Origin: Muribaculaceae bacterium Isolate-037 (Harlan)
Lineage (GTDB): Bacteria; Bacteroidota; Bacteroidia; Bacteroidales; Muribaculaceae
Assembly: GCA_003762615.1 (NCBI GenBank)
Contig: RIAZ01000032.1
Coordinates: 1-64,000, forward strand
Length of the DNA stretch: 64,000 nt
Reading direction: 5' to 3'
Positions 55,056 to 59,923 of the stretch are shown here, one piece after another; within the stretch, counting starts at the first letter, position 1, and every line of letters starts with the position of its first letter. A model generated the notes under the pieces. The model did no database searches, had not been told where the DNA came from, and saw only the letters and a list, made by a program, of their open reading frames with translations. The translations under genes were made by a program, and so were the position numbers.

Positions 55056-55808
55056 TCAGAATTTGAAACCGATCTTCAAAGTCGGAGCTGCCAGTATTGA
55101 ATAATCGTGGCTGTCGGCTTCAAGCGATTTCAAACCCTCCTGCGGTTTGTGGGTAGTCATGTTGTAGGCGTAAGCGAATGGGTCAACAGAGAATCCCACG
55201 AACATAGCCGGGAGCACGTAGTAGTCAAAACCGATGGTGAGGCTGCCACGAAGGCTCCAAGTCTCGCCGACCGACTTGCCCATAGAGGTCCATTCGTCAT
55301 ATTTCTGCTCATTCAGAGCATACGCCATGCCAACCCTCACGCCTGTATACCACATCAGGTTGCTGATTCCGGAGATAGAGAAATATCTGTCGACTCCGGT
55401 GTAAGCGTTCCATGTGCAGGAATACTGGCTTGCCACAGCGCGATAGTTAGGTATCTCGCCGAGAGTGTCATCGCCGGTAATATCGTCGATAGTGCCGGGC
55501 ACGTCGGGATAGCCGGGATGGTGGTTGAAGTTCAGTCCTCCTCCCAAATTGAGTTTCCACTTGTCACTCACGAAGTATCCAGCCTCGAAGCCCACCATGA
55601 GCTTCTTCTGGTTCCAAAGACTGTTAGGAGCTATCGCCTCATAGTCTGTGAGGTTGCCCGGAAGGGCATTGACGTTTGTGTAACTGTTGTATCCTACTGT
55701 AGCCGCTACGGTGAAATCACCTTTTACGGGGGTGTTGTCGTCCTGAGCGGCGACAGTAAGAGACAGCATGGGTAGAACGGCTGAAATTAAAAGTTTCGTT
55801 TTGTTCAT
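55056..55808 (-). CDS. BT1926-like outer-membrane beta-barrel protein
   Basis: This 250-aa protein has a signal peptide (LSLTVAAQDD) and about eight to ten beta strands, ending SILAAPTLKIGFKF with a C-terminal Phe. It matches the layout of the BT1926-type barrel co-transcribed with the S-layer protein in B. thetaiotaomicron. It follows the coiled-coil lipoprotein by 40 bp and shares its promoter. The identification is by architecture and context. Confidence 0.7.
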   Translation of the reverse strand: MNKTKLLISAVLPMLSLTVAAQDDNTPVKGDFTVAATVGYNSYTNVNALPGNLTDYEAIAPNSLWNQKKLMVGFEAGYFVSDKWKLNLGGGLNFNHHPGYPDVPGTIDDITGDDTLGEIPNYRAVASQYSCTWNAYTGVDRYFSISGISNLMWYTGVRVGMAYALNEQKYDEWTSMGKSVGETWSLRGSLTIGFDYYVLPAMFVGFSVDPFAYAYNMTTHKPQEGLKSLEADSHDYSILAAPTLKIGFKF

Positions 55809-55848: not shown

Positions 55849-57963
55849 TTATTCAGCCATAGCCTTGTCAAGGGCAGCCTTGGCGTTGTCGTATTCCTTC
55901 TGGTAGATTTCGATCTGGGCTTTCTGGTCAGCTATCTGCTGCTCAAGAGCCTTGATGGCGTTGGCATCCTTATCACCGGCAGAAGCAAGCTCCTTCTCAT
56001 AGCCGGCAATCTTCTTCTGTGCCTCAGCAATCTGATCCTGGAATCCCTTGATATCAGTCTCCTTCTCGGAAATCATAGAGTCGATATTCTGTCCTTCATT
56101 ATCGGTAGCGATAAGACTGTTGAGGGCATTGTATTCTGCATACTTCTGATCGTATGCGTTCTTGGCGAGGGCATTATCCTTCTTAGCTTCGGCGAGAGCG
56201 AGGTTAGCGGCATTGACCGCATTCATGCTTTCAACATTGCCGGCAGCACCATCATTGAGGTCTTTAGCCTTAGCGTTGAGTTCGGTAATGAATTTCTCAT
56301 TCTCACTTACCTGATATTCAGCATTATTTTTAGTCTTGGTAGCTTCTACAGTGTTGGCAGTAGCAAGTTTGAGTTCTCTTTCTTTATCATAAACATTGCC
56401 GGCCTCATTATATGCCTCCCATGCTTTAGTCTGTGCTTCGATAGCTTTATTAAGGGCAGTCTCGGCATCAGCAAGGGCTTTCTTCTGAGCCTCTGTGGCT
56501 TTATCTCCAGCCTCGTCTACAACCTTCTGGGCAGCATCCTTAGTCTTCTGAGCAGCCTCAACAGCAGCGTCGGCATCCTGAGCGGCTTTTTCAAGTTTCA
56601 CAGAATTGTCGTAAGCCTTCTGAGCGTCCTCCTGAGCTTTCTGGGCATCCTCAAGATACTTGGTTGCATCAGCAAGCCATTTCTTGTCGGATTTCTGAGT
56701 TGCGGCTACCGCAGCAATAACCTTCTCAACACTTCCCGGCACGAGATCGTAGTATGAAGAATATTCGTAATAGGATTCAGACCCTTCACTTACGATGCCG
56801 CTATTCCAGTCTGAAGTGCCTACAAGTTCGTAGGTCAGTTCTTCATTTGTATAAGAAGCATTTGTGAAGAGAGGTATATAGGTTTCGCTGAGGACTTTCT
56901 CCTCCCAATTACCATAACCCCACTCGTTAGGGATATAAATATTCTCTATTTCCTGAATGAATGCGCAGTAGTATCCACGGGCATCCTTGGGAGCACCGTT
57001 TTCCTGTTCTGATACCCATTTAATCTGGATATTCCCACTGATATAGTTAATATTACCATTATAGGGCTTCAGATCATTGACAGCAGCCATATAAGCGGAA
57101 CCTGTCAGAGTTTTCCATGCGGCATTATTTGCATTGGTGGCATCCAACACAACTTTGGCGGCATCTTTCTGCTTGGTATCCAGAGTAAGAACTTCCTGCC
57201 ATACAGCGGGGAGGTCTTTCTTAGCGTCAGCCACTGAGAAATTCTTCCAAGTGTCGATGTAAGTCTGTGCTTCGAGGATATCCTCCTGCCATCCGGTGAT
57301 ATTGTCATTCTCACTTTGGATAAGGTTTGCATAAACTTCAGCTGACGTGTCGAGTCCGGCTTTCAGTCTTGCAAGGTTGATCTCATATCCGGCAAGAGTT
57401 TTATTTGCCGTAAAAACTGCTTCCTGAGCTTCGCGATAGACGCGGAAAAGCTCACTCAGACGAGTCCTTGTAGCATCGTCATTATTCTGGATAGCTTCCT
57501 GATAAGCCTTCTGGGCAGCGAGCATATCAGCCTTCTGTCTCAGAAGGTTAATCTCAAGTTGTCCGGCAAGTTCCTGAAGGAGGTTTGCATAACGTTGCTT
57601 CTCATATTGAGCTTGCGCCATAGCCTCTTCAGCTTGCGCCATAGCTTGTTGCGCGCGAGCTTTCTCGGTTTCTGTCTGTGCTTTCTGGTACTCAGCCCGA
57701 GCCATCTCGTAAGCAGCCTGAGCCTTCGCATATTCAGCCTGGGCCTTAGCCAATTCGGCTTGAGCTTTCTGAGCCTCGGCAGTTGCATTAGCAGTGATTA
57801 TGGCAGCCTCCGCCTGAGCCTTGTTGAGGTCAGCCAGAGATTTGATCTGCTCAGCCTTTGCCTGGCGTACAGCAGTAACAGAAGGAGACTCGGTGTCGTC
57901 CACGCAGCTGTTGAGAGTCAACGCTCCCAAGAGAAGTGCGCTTAGAAATAGTTTCTGTTTCAT
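55849..57963 (-). CDS. Large coiled-coil lipoprotein, BT1927-like candidate surface-layer protein
   Basis: This 704-aa lipoprotein (ALTLNSCVDD, Cys at about 20) is mostly long coiled coil rich in Ala, Lys, Gln and Glu. Residues about 35-150 are near-continuous AQAE/KAQ heptads; a globular part with many aromatics lies at about 300-420 (NEWGYGNWEEKV, YYEYSSYYDLVPGS); coiled coil then continues to the end. It heads an operon with a barrel protein and is controlled by an invertible promoter, as the BT1927-BT1926 S-layer operon is. In this assembly the promoter points away, so the operon is probably OFF. Confidence 0.7.
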   Translation of the reverse strand: MKQKLFLSALLLGALTLNSCVDDTESPSVTAVRQAKAEQIKSLADLNKAQAEAAIITANATAEAQKAQAELAKAQAEYAKAQAAYEMARAEYQKAQTETEKARAQQAMAQAEEAMAQAQYEKQRYANLLQELAGQLEINLLRQKADMLAAQKAYQEAIQNNDDATRTRLSELFRVYREAQEAVFTANKTLAGYEINLARLKAGLDTSAEVYANLIQSENDNITGWQEDILEAQTYIDTWKNFSVADAKKDLPAVWQEVLTLDTKQKDAAKVVLDATNANNAAWKTLTGSAYMAAVNDLKPYNGNINYISGNIQIKWVSEQENGAPKDARGYYCAFIQEIENIYIPNEWGYGNWEEKVLSETYIPLFTNASYTNEELTYELVGTSDWNSGIVSEGSESYYEYSSYYDLVPGSVEKVIAAVAATQKSDKKWLADATKYLEDAQKAQEDAQKAYDNSVKLEKAAQDADAAVEAAQKTKDAAQKVVDEAGDKATEAQKKALADAETALNKAIEAQTKAWEAYNEAGNVYDKERELKLATANTVEATKTKNNAEYQVSENEKFITELNAKAKDLNDGAAGNVESMNAVNAANLALAEAKKDNALAKNAYDQKYAEYNALNSLIATDNEGQNIDSMISEKETDIKGFQDQIAEAQKKIAGYEKELASAGDKDANAIKALEQQIADQKAQIEIYQKEYDNAKAALDKAMAE

Positions 57964-58070
57964 AGGTTAATGTTTGTTGTTAATTGATAAATTAATTTTA
58001 TGTGTGGATATATTTGTTTCAGGATATCTGTTTGATTATAGGTAAGCGATAAGCATGTTTGAAGCCTGAA

Positions 58071-58107
58071 TCGCATCCATAACTCTTCGTAAGAGATTTG
58101 GATGCGA
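58071..58107. repeat. Left 37-bp inverted repeat of the invertible segment
   Basis: It starts TCGCATCCATAACTCTT, has the central CGT, and ends AAGAGATTTGGATGCGA. It matches the reverse complement of the right repeat at 35 of 37 positions. Each repeat is itself nearly palindromic, so the central trinucleotide (CGT against ACG) sets its direction. Confidence 0.85.
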
Positions 58108-58409
58108 TGCTATTTATTTGAAAATTAATAAAATGTCTTAAATGGGAATATGGATTTGCTAAACAAATTGCCGTTTCGTTGCTAAACAATAATGAATATT
58201 GATGAAACTGACGCGCACGAATCTTGGGATTTTTTCAGATTGTTTTCAGGGTAGATATAAGGTGGGTCAGTGGGATTCTCCTTGTGGGGAATAATAAAAA
58301 AATGTGATTACCAACAATATAGAAAATCTTGAATGTTTTGATTTTTTTTGAGAATTTGAAATCTTTTTTGAAATAAATTTGGATTTTTAATTTTTTTGAT
58401 ATAATTTTG
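58108..58409. promoter_or_regulatory. 302-bp invertible promoter segment, OFF orientation
   Basis: The segment between the two 37-bp inverted repeats contains no gene. Its only good promoter lies at the right end and points right, away from the coiled-coil/barrel operon. At the left end the minus strand has no TAnnTTTG next to the repeat. Inversion would bring the promoter against the left repeat, about 140 nt from the lipoprotein start. No invertase gene is in the window. Confidence 0.8.
58378..58409 (+). promoter_or_regulatory. Promoter inside the invertible segment
   Basis: TTTGG (58378-58382), a 19-bp spacer and TAATTTTG (58402-58409) form a near-perfect Bacteroidetes promoter. The -7 box abuts the right repeat, so RNA begins inside the repeat whichever way the segment lies. 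Confidence 0.85.
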
Positions 58410-58446
58410 TCGCATCCAAATCTCTTACGAAGAGATTTGGATGCGA
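58410..58446. repeat. Right 37-bp inverted repeat of the invertible segment
   Basis: A perfect palindrome with 17-bp arms around ACG. It is inverted relative to 58071-58107 and directly follows the -7 box of the mobile promoter. Confidence 0.85.
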
Positions 58447-58477
58447 CAAAGCCGAGATTTGCTAAACAAATAAAAAA

Positions 58478-58505
58478 ATCAGGTCAGAAATGACCTGATT
58501 TTTTA
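58478..58505. terminator. Bidirectional terminator beside the invertible promoter
   Basis: ATCAGGTCA (58478-58486) pairs with TGACCTGAT (58491-58499) across a 4-nt loop, with A residues before and T residues after, so it works in both directions. It would stop the outward transcript made in the OFF state after about 80 nt, and the metal permease transcript from the other side. Confidence 0.85.
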
Positions 58506-58549: not shown

Positions 58550-59797
58550 TCAGACGATGGTGAAACCGAGGTCGTCAATCACCTCGCGTATGGCAGCTGA
58601 ATCAGCCTCACCCTTTATCACTGTCTTGCCGGTGGCAAGATCCACGCTTACAGACTCCACGCCGGGGAGTTTCGAGAGATTTTTCTCTACCATAGCCTTG
58701 CAATGACCGCAAGTCATCCCTTTCACTGTAATAACAGTCTCTTCATTATTCATTCCTGTATTCATTTCTGTATCTATTTTATCTGATTTTGTTGGTATAT
58801 ATTTTCTTATCATTGCGTTGATGAGCAGGATTATGAGCAACACGGAACAGATGCCGGGGAACAATCCTACCTGAAGGTGGCAATTCATCTTTCCTGCTGT
58901 CATCTGCATCGGAAACCAGTCGGCGGGCATGAGATAGTCGATGCATAAGCCGATTGCTATGGCTCCCATTACGATTGTGGCAAGATACATTGCGGCTGCC
59001 TTCTTGCCGAGGGATTTGCTGACTATTATGATTGACGCGAAATTGGCGGCAGGACCCGCCATCAGCAGCACGAATGCCGCACCCGGACTTAGTCCTTTCA
59101 GCATCAGGGAGAGTGCGATAGGTATGGAGCCTGTGGAGCAGACGTACATCGGTACTGCCACTATCACCACTGCGATCATCGACAGCAATGGATAGTCGGC
59201 AAAGAACGTGAAGAATCCATCCGGAACAAACACTGTTATGGTGGCGGCAATCACCAGTCCGATTATGAGCCATTTTCCGATATTCTGCACCATCTCCACA
59301 AATCCGTAGCGCAAGGCGTCACGTATTTTCCCGATAAAACTGTCGGAGGCTGGAGCGTCGATGGTATCCACCTCTTTATCTGCCGTGACATCGCACGATG
59401 TATCTTCCCGATTGACCAGCATACCGCCAATGAATGCCGTCACGAGAGCCGCCACCGGACGTATTATTGCGAATGCCGGACCAAGTAGGGAGTAGGTTGC
59501 GGCAATTGAGTCAATGCCGGTCTGAGGCGTGGCGATAAGGAATGATGTGGATGCACCACGCGACGCACCGTTGCGGCGGAGGGATACCGCTGTAGGCAGC
59601 ACTCCGCATGAGCATAACGGGAGGGGCACTCCTATAAGAGCCGCCTTTATCACTGCCCATGCACCGGGACGCGACAGATGTTTCCTGTAGAACTCACCGG
59701 GCACGAAGGCATACAGCACGCCTGCCACTAAGAAACCGAGAAGCAGGTAGGGTGCCATCTCGGCGAGCATGTTTATCAATGAGTAAATGAATTCCAT
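58550..59797 (-). CDS. SO_0444-type Cu/Zn efflux permease with C-terminal HMA domain
   Basis: This 415-aa protein starts at ATG 59797 (MEFIYSLINMLAEM), just after the -7 box. It has two permease modules of about four helices each. The first contains PLPLCSCGVLPTAVSLRRNG and ATPQTGIDS, the second VPMYVCSTGSIPIALSLM and GPAANFASIII. The last 65 residues form a heavy-metal-associated domain with GMTCGHC (about 362-367). The family exports metal ions, and the HMA tail probably delivers or senses them. It is downstream of an AraC regulator whose own N-terminus resembles an HMA domain. Confidence 0.85.
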   Translation of the reverse strand: MEFIYSLINMLAEMAPYLLLGFLVAGVLYAFVPGEFYRKHLSRPGAWAVIKAALIGVPLPLCSCGVLPTAVSLRRNGASRGASTSFLIATPQTGIDSIAATYSLLGPAFAIIRPVAALVTAFIGGMLVNREDTSCDVTADKEVDTIDAPASDSFIGKIRDALRYGFVEMVQNIGKWLIIGLVIAATITVFVPDGFFTFFADYPLLSMIAVVIVAVPMYVCSTGSIPIALSLMLKGLSPGAAFVLLMAGPAANFASIIIVSKSLGKKAAAMYLATIVMGAIAIGLCIDYLMPADWFPMQMTAGKMNCHLQVGLFPGICSVLLIILLINAMIRKYIPTKSDKIDTEMNTGMNNEETVITVKGMTCGHCKAMVEKNLSKLPGVESVSVDLATGKTVIKGEADSAAIREVIDDLGFTIV

Positions 59798-59820
59798 ATT
59801 TACAATCTTTTTTCCGATTG

Positions 59821-59828
59821 CAAAATTA
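59821..59828 (-). promoter_or_regulatory. -7 box of the metal permease gene
   Basis: On the minus strand TAATTTTG (59828-59821) lies 23 bp before ATG 59797. It shows the permease has its own promoter despite facing the same way as the AraC gene. Confidence 0.6.
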
Positions 59829-59923
59829 CAAATTGCCGGGCATACGGATGTTACACCATTATCAAATAATGTTGCATGATTATCCATTCGCAAAGGGATA
59901 ATCATGAAGGGCGATAGAATAGA

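Follow-up and report, generated by a model that had tools for sequence, protein, structure and literature searches.

Invertible promoters in Bacteroidota

Invertible promoters are well-known in Bacteroides. In B. fragilis, a single serine recombinase, Mpi, is regarded as the enzyme that acts in trans on several such promoters. For the fimS switch of E. coli, directionality has been attributed to FimE, and to our knowledge no arm-type recombinase sites are known there. How a recombinase picks a direction and at the same time avoids mixing several switches is a question to which we know of no answer.

The closest described systems are the S-layer/OmpA operons of B. thetaiotaomicron, which are switched via repeats of the form CCGTTACCTABVRAGTAAC (PMC12118408). 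Here, locking of the BT1927 promoter has shown that the repeats matter (PMC12548429). Furthermore, the arm-binding domain has been tied to integrases of mobile elements (PMC8138268), and further repeat motifs of Bacteroidota are given in the supplements of PMC11892184, among which the core ATCTCTT-NNN-AAGAGAT treated below may already be present. A search of open-access PMC returned no report on phase variation by inversion in Muribaculaceae, and among the matches listed there none dealt with arm sites, direction or helical phasing in invertons, judged by title and start of the abstract.

Here, a putative switch of a different class in front of a similar operon is described. We consider it highly probable that the segment is a phase-variable promoter, which is inverted in trans by a tyrosine recombinase of the type encoded on contig C24, using recombination cores as well as arm sites.

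The predicted invertible segment and its operon

The window is the whole stretch of 64,000 nt that was analyzed, located on contig C28 of the Muribaculaceae genome. It contains two 37-nt inverted repeats at 58071-58107 (left arm) and 58410-58446 (right arm), which are complementary at 35/37 positions (95%) and enclose an invertible segment of 302 nt (58108-58409). The repeats described in the first-pass annotation were in this way recovered by repeat comparison. Each arm by itself is a hairpin-like near-palindrome, with perfect 21-nt halves around 3 nt in the right one and 18-nt halves (89%) in the left one; because of this, both arms also align as direct repeats (86%). Within the arms lies the shared core ATCTCTT-NNN-AAGAGAT, present as AACTCTTCGTAAGAGAT at 58081-58097 and as ATCTCTTACGAAGAGAT at 58420-58436, and the centre of the right core is complementary to that of the left one. 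The pattern ATCTCTNNNNNAGAGAT has 10 exact matches in the genome and the reversed pattern 0, which excludes chance. With 339 nt from core to core, the window segment is far longer than usual, as 52/58 counted invertons of the family measure 170-199 nt.

Using the Bacteroides promoter consensus, one outward promoter was recognized on the plus strand at 58378-58409, with TTTG at 58378 and the -7 box TAATTTTG at 58402-58409. The -7 box abuts the right arm and the promoter is directed away from the operon, which corresponds to the OFF orientation and agrees with the single outward promoter touching the right repeat that had been proposed. The flip was also proposed to place this promoter at the left repeat facing the operon, and inversion in silico indeed creates an exact TAnnTTTG at 58115 on the minus strand. 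As sequenced, the minus strand of 57963-58140 contains no exact TAnnTTTG and a single copy with one mismatch at 58127. A sigma-70-like match lies at 58063-58035 on the minus strand; two such matches in the region compare with a mean of 2.6 in shuffled sequences, i.e., chance level, and a constitutive promoter at this position is possible.

Downstream of the right arm, a bidirectional terminator-like hairpin is present at 58473-58504, with a stem of 14 pairs and a 4-nt loop on both strands. Its fold z is -7.5 and 0/200 shuffles were equally stable; it lies where the OFF-state transcript would end, as anticipated in the first reading. From the other side, a gene for an ArsP_1 permease fused to a heavy-metal-associated domain (58550-59905) is directed toward the hairpin, which may serve this gene side as well.

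The first gene of the operon encodes a coiled-coil lipoprotein of 704 aa (55849-57963, minus strand) without a Pfam family, and is followed by the gene of a 250-aa outer-membrane barrel (55056-55808, minus strand; PF16961 OmpA_like, E 1.3e-85). At E 1e-20, just 1/110 other genomes, G022, encodes a lipoprotein homologue (42% identity), where a core pair lies upstream and the barrel gene is next. The PF16961 barrel is also present in 5/8 genomes of one other genus, probably Bacteroides. In four of these five, a GTTAC-type inverton lies 88-109 bp ahead of a lipoprotein gene (826-980 aa), and next comes the PF16961 barrel, which is homologous to the window barrel (blastp 2e-14 to 5e-12). The barrel matches of G532, as well as two in G516, have no listed inverton nearby. 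The lipoproteins of the four genomes align to that of the window over about 26 N-terminal residues at an E of about 0.05, which is not significant. The likeness to BT1927-BT1926 claimed in the first-pass annotation holds for the gene order, as seen in the four genomes. Judged by these gene neighborhoods, the operon type is common to the window and the probable Bacteroides genomes and the switch class is different, because 4/8 of the latter have GTTAC repeats in front of a homologous barrel operon. By likeness, the window operon would have an S-layer role.

Both orientations and a family of paired cores

The window is in the OFF orientation, whereas the orthologous locus of G022 is ON, with the -7 box at the operon-side arm facing the lipoprotein gene. 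In a second orthologous group L029 and L106 are ON and L119 is OFF, and in a third one L073, the promoter of which is unreadable, is inverted relative to L090, L133, L139 and L188. Each orientation comes from a single assembly per species, so that both orientations are met between related species. From this we infer that the segment inverts in this strain as well. The comparative evidence strongly supports the earlier reading as an invertible promoter in the OFF orientation, to which the present analysis adds the palindromic cores, the second motif, the family across the genome and the candidate recombinase.

The window is not the sole locus of this kind. At least six core pairs are present in its genome, the sister pairs being C14:101152/101327, C25:256681/256856, C29:4574/4769, C41:8989/9174 and C24:36946/37132. 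The six pairs have six different centres, and within each pair the two centres match. A count over 111 genomes of the genus, with the own genome among them, gave 275 exact copies of ATCTCTNNNNNAGAGAT and 7 of the reversed control. Among 207 fetched loci (about 1.0 Mb), which were picked for containing sites or recombinases and from which no genome-wide rate is derivable, 62 non-redundant pairs were found; with copies counted, there are 107 pairs against 4 for the reversed pattern. Since the first search had demanded matching centres, the search was redone on half-sites alone. Here, 53/55 neighboring core pairs have fully complementary 5-nt centres, compared to a mean of 3.0 and a maximum of 10 in 2000 permutations, and the two exceptions sit between two adjacent invertons. 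In 59/62 non-redundant pairs, one arm and not the other has a -7 box (last two bases relaxed) 17-24 nt to its inside; the other three pairs (L073, L087, L177) have no recognizable promoter and were left out. L173 was also removed, which leaves the 58 invertons used for motif offsets, lengths and the IHF-like pattern.

Core-to-core lengths up to 215 nt cluster at 170-177, 182-188, 193-199 and 208. For these 53 invertons the best period is 11.5 (p 0.0005 against smoothed lengths), and by this measure the core spacing tracks helix turns. The GTTAC-type invertons of the other genus (L269-L308, L218, L234, L237) have matched centres in 42/43 cases, and their lengths are quantized too, with a period of about 11.75 (p 0.001; 38/43 tested, 250-315 nt), many of them probably being homologous loci.

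Two further arrangements were observed. The 4.5-Mb relative G033 has 22 exact cores, and several of its pairs on separate contigs have an identical centre, so that cross-locus recombination might occur there. At C47:96583-96787 (L062:2584-2788), an inverted pair ATAAATGTTGCATTTAT lies within an array of similar AT-rich repeats 3' of another tyrosine recombinase gene; a promoter was looked for at this pair and none was found.

Genes behind the sister switches

The C14 inverton precedes SspB-SspC and the C25 inverton BrxP-BrxC, both strong matches, which clearly places genes of the Ssp and BREX defense systems behind these switches as far as gene matches tell. The C24 inverton precedes a lipoprotein operon with a tubulin-like protein, and the C29 inverton the gene of a 463-aa protein, downstream of which a UDP-sugar dehydrogenase is encoded. 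The C41 inverton has genes on both sides, including one for a caspase-like protein (weak match). Domains that recur most often in the pool of 101 operon-side genes, which includes the own genome, include FHA (11), protein kinase (7) and NusG (4). In PADLOC, the commonest matches of this pool were PD-T4-6 models and mad6 with 7 members each, and the commonest family in the pool of 105 other-side genes had 3. Overall, however, the other-side pool matched more PADLOC families than the operon side (102 vs. 75), and no clear enrichment of defense genes is apparent across the regulon.

A second motif at set positions around the cores

A second motif, TTGCTAAACAA, recurs around the cores. On the plus strand of the window, it lies within the segment at 58156-58166, 75 nt from the left core start (inner motif A2), with a second inner copy at 58179-58189 (98 nt from the left core start), and outside at 58459-58469, 39 nt from the right core start (outer motif A1). 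In the whole genome it is present 14 times, of which 10 copies lie in or beside five of the six invertons; the sixth, on C14, has copies with one mismatch. Measured from the core opposite the promoter, the typical start of A2 is 74 nt inside (own genome: 73-75), and A1 lies 25 nt outside the operon-distal core, compared to 39 nt in the window. With up to one mismatch, A2 is present at 72-76 nt inside in 36/58 oriented invertons, and A1 at exactly 25 nt in 19/58 on the promoter side and 3/58 on the other side; the background of TTGCTAAACAA at any other offset is about 0.02 on average in the 58 invertons. On the same threshold A2 is missing in 22/58 and A1 in more, and part of the family, G022 included, has neither motif. 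Where both could be read, the operon side predicted from A1 is the gene side in 24/25 loci. The spacing between A2 and the -7 box is likewise quantized (77-81, 88-91, 98-101 and 112 nt), the window having 246 nt.

Base 5 of the motif is T or C, giving the variants TTGCTAAACAA and TTGCCAAACAA, and it co-varies with residue 30 of the recombinase encoded at the locus. This residue is V or P in 17/17 T loci and Q in 14/14 C loci, i.e., 31/31 loci, among which is the near-identical pair L144/L173. Loci without motif or recombinase or with a tied T/C vote were left out, and identical recombinases were merged. The four most associated of 400 columns are 30, 34, 21 and 25, all within the arm-binding domain; a structural model of the relative from Phocaeicola sartorii puts them on strands two and three of this domain. 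At p < 0.001, with p-values that counted the reference protein twice, there was no column in the core-binding domain and one in the catalytic domain. In a tree built from the remaining part of the protein, the T/C label changes at least four times, twice on well-supported branches; residue 30 changes as often and is concordant in 31/31. Such a small number of changes does not suffice for a formal phylogenetic sign test. The match of base 5 and residue 30 in all 31 loci favors integrase-type arm sites, and the sequence comparison argues for TTGCTAAACAA as putative arm sites of the recombinase.

An IHF-like pattern was also observed. It peaks at offset 41, between core and A2, where 22/58 invertons have at least 7/9 consensus positions, and in the window a tentative DNA-bending (IHF/HU-like) site lies at 58123-58135 on the plus strand with 7/9 positions. 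The reversed pattern peaks too, at offset 29 (25/58), and a classic IHF site was therefore rejected; a different protein may bind this element as a symmetric site. In five GTTAC-type invertons checked, TTGCTAAACAA is absent at up to one mismatch, and column consensus and k-mer counts gave no clear equivalent of the arm motif in 43 GTTAC-type invertons (20 orientable).

The candidate recombinase

On the contig of the window no tyrosine recombinase was found (PF00589, E 0.001), and therefore the enzyme must act in trans. The most likely enzyme for the window segment, judged by the sites around its gene, is a 400-aa tyrosine recombinase encoded at C24:37205-38407, or a close relative of it. The C24 core pair lies just 3' of this gene. 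The protein has Arm-DNA-bind_5, SAM-like and Phage_integrase domains, the arm-binding domain matching PF17293 with an E of 8.7e-10. K275, H349, H371 and Y380 are invariant and R249 and R348 nearly so across 26 aligned rows (the C24 gene plus relatives); we take these six to be the catalytic residues.

Core pairs accompany this recombinase beyond the own genome. They are present within the fetched flank of 17/30 closest recombinase loci (74-100% identity, own included), the flanks often being shortened by contig ends. At least two cores are found in 44/62 genomes with a close full-length homologue, in 4/18 with a weaker one and in 6/31 with none at 1e-40 (close vs. none, Fisher p 2.4e-6). Counter-evidence comes from these last six genomes, which hold 2-6 cores and no recombinase homologue at 1e-40; three of them have distant matches, and G007 (6 cores), G082 and G118 remain without a match even when the cut-off is 1e-10. 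Conversely, exact cores are absent from 6/62 genomes that encode a close homologue.

The P. sartorii relative was modelled with AlphaFold (mean pLDDT 83.5, pTM 0.52). In structural comparison, this model matched lambda integrase 1z1b over 283 aligned positions (Z 14.8, rmsd 13.8) and Tn1549 integrase 6en2 over 257 (Z 15.1, rmsd 12.3), level with the scores of Xer and Cre. The catalytic and core-binding parts of this model would accordingly fall among the tyrosine recombinases, at large rmsd. The arm domain, which the model predicts as three strands plus a helix at residues 3-86, is barely probed by this comparison, because few listed rows begin before residue 100. A sequence search of solved structures gave seven distinct matches, namely four Xer-type proteins, IntI4, an integrase and one annotated as RaiA.

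Other recombinases of the genome were noted as well. Two Resolvase-family genes (C58, C5) have no visible link to these sites. On C69 (L016:2171-2555), a 40%-identical paralogue has its own inverted-repeat pair CTCTAACTTAGAGTGGGG 3' of the gene, 371 apart, with a promoter-like TAATTTTG close to one arm. In another genus, P. sartorii JCM 17136 (L192) encodes a recombinase of 79% identity, next to which lie an inverton and both arm sites; horizontal transfer is a possible origin.

Alternative explanations

The repeats could be static dispersed palindromes or terminators, with a promoter that never flips. Each arm is palindromic, and the evidence for inversion comes from assemblies and not from reads, both of which would fit. 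This reading is scarcely credible and was rejected, since the cores are paired with complementary locus-specific centres, a promoter lies at a set distance inside one arm, and orthologous loci show both orientations. A different question is whether another tyrosine recombinase inverts the segment, either the C69 paralogue or an unrelated one, the C24 gene serving only its neighboring inverton. The genome has 20 Phage_integrase matches, the core of the pair beside the C69 paralogue is related, and G007, G082 and G118 hold cores with no homologue at 1e-10. However, the cores and the arm motif of the window are of the same class as those beside the C24 gene, and the window motif has the T form predicted by P30 of the C24 recombinase. 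The C69 pair, in contrast, has different flanks, and TTGCTAAACAA is absent from its locus within two mismatches; altogether, another enzyme appears quite unlikely.

For A1 and A2, it can be argued that a transcription factor or a nucleoid protein binds there and steers the promoter or the choice of orientation. The helical phasing between A2 and the -7 box is also conceivable for an activator or repressor site, and the IHF-like pattern is close by. Nevertheless, A1 lies at a set distance from the distal core outside the moving promoter and marks the gene side at all but one of the readable loci, and base 5 co-varies with residues of the arm-binding domain, as opposed to zero core-binding columns and one catalytic column. 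Sites of a regulator are therefore an unlikely, although not a far-fetched, explanation.

Proposed mechanism and direction

The sites, the motifs and their geometry, the two orientations in relatives and the co-variation of motif and arm domain can be read from the sequences, and an inversion by the C24-type recombinase through cores and arm sites would account for them as follows. Each end of the segment would act as a palindromic core with half-sites of about 10 nt around a centre of 5-7 nt. Strand exchange would require identical centres, so that the locus-specific centre would be an address, which keeps the switches of the genome from cross-recombining. In addition, the recombinase would grip the arm sites TTGCTAAACAA, A2 within the segment and A1 beyond its operon-distal end, and form with them a helically phased loop that may resemble the looped integrase complex. 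In the OFF state the promoter would fire into the terminator hairpin, and after inversion (ON) it would face the genes of the lipoprotein and the barrel, the leader being roughly 140 nt long.

This geometry may have a directional consequence. In the OFF state A2 would be at the proximal and A1 at the distal core, i.e., one arm site each, whereas in the ON state both would be at the distal core and the proximal core would be without any. Because of this unequal layout, switching could be biased. Taking lambda as the analogue, OFF may correspond to attL/attR and ON to attP/attB. Among loci with A1, 26/31 are OFF, compared to 16/21 of those without A1 and with readable gene side and promoter (the tally includes the near-identical pair L144/L173). 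The excess is independent of A1; therefore, it is no proof of an intrinsic direction and was rejected as such.

An inverter of promoters that uses arm sites would fit a domesticated integrase. On this analogy, the promoters might be domesticated integrase reactions with a built-in direction, ON to OFF by the recombinase alone, which we consider a tentative and rather doubtful idea. If true, switching back to ON would depend on a directionality factor or a signal, and one regulator could jointly turn on address-coded shields, i.e., the S-layer-like coat, BREX, Ssp and capsule-type genes.

Comparison with known systems

New here is the second motif TTGCTAAACAA at set positions around the cores, which co-varies with residue 30. 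The family gives a candidate answer to the question of direction and separation, in which the matched centres would be the addresses and the arm sites would mark the orientation, residue 30 being the predicted specificity residue. It would also bring a surface-coat operon and genes of two anti-phage systems (BREX, Ssp) under one switch class, so that coordinated or combinatorial phase variation of phage defense would become directly testable. Since P. sartorii JCM 17136 has the recombinase relative, the inverton and both arm sites, such tests do not depend on an uncultured organism.

Compared to the BT1927 type, the window likewise has an invertible promoter and palindromic repeats with a variable centre, and downstream it encodes a large surface protein plus a barrel of the OmpA family (PMC12118408, PMC12548429). 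The order inverton, surface lipoprotein and PF16961/OmpA-family barrel is found, whereas the repeat CCGTTACCTABVRAGTAAC is not. The repeat core is ATCTCTTNNNAAGAGAT instead of GTTACCTANNNAGTAAC, of which the genome has no exact copy, the lipoprotein sequences are barely alike, and TTGCTAAACAA is absent at up to one mismatch from the five GTTAC-type invertons checked. In the BT1927 type a site-specific integrase is described nearby (PMC12118408, PMC12548429), whereas the recombinase is not located beside the window operon.

In other respects the locus has the features of tyrosine-type invertons of Bacteroidales, namely repeats plus promoter, both orientations among orthologues and a candidate recombinase with catalytic residues. 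Like Mpi, one enzyme would act on several invertible promoters in trans. Mpi is, however, of the serine type, and the matched 5-nt centres fit a tyrosine recombinase better. With fimS of E. coli (FimB/FimE), the locus would share an invertible promoter of about 0.3 kb that is turned by a tyrosine recombinase (PMC9993118).

The arm-binding domain and the predicted arm-type motifs at set distances from the core sites are shared with the integrases of lambda, CTnDOT and Tn916. In contrast to these, the enzyme described here apparently moves no element and flips resident promoters at many loci, and its arm sites are divided between the moving segment and the fixed flank.
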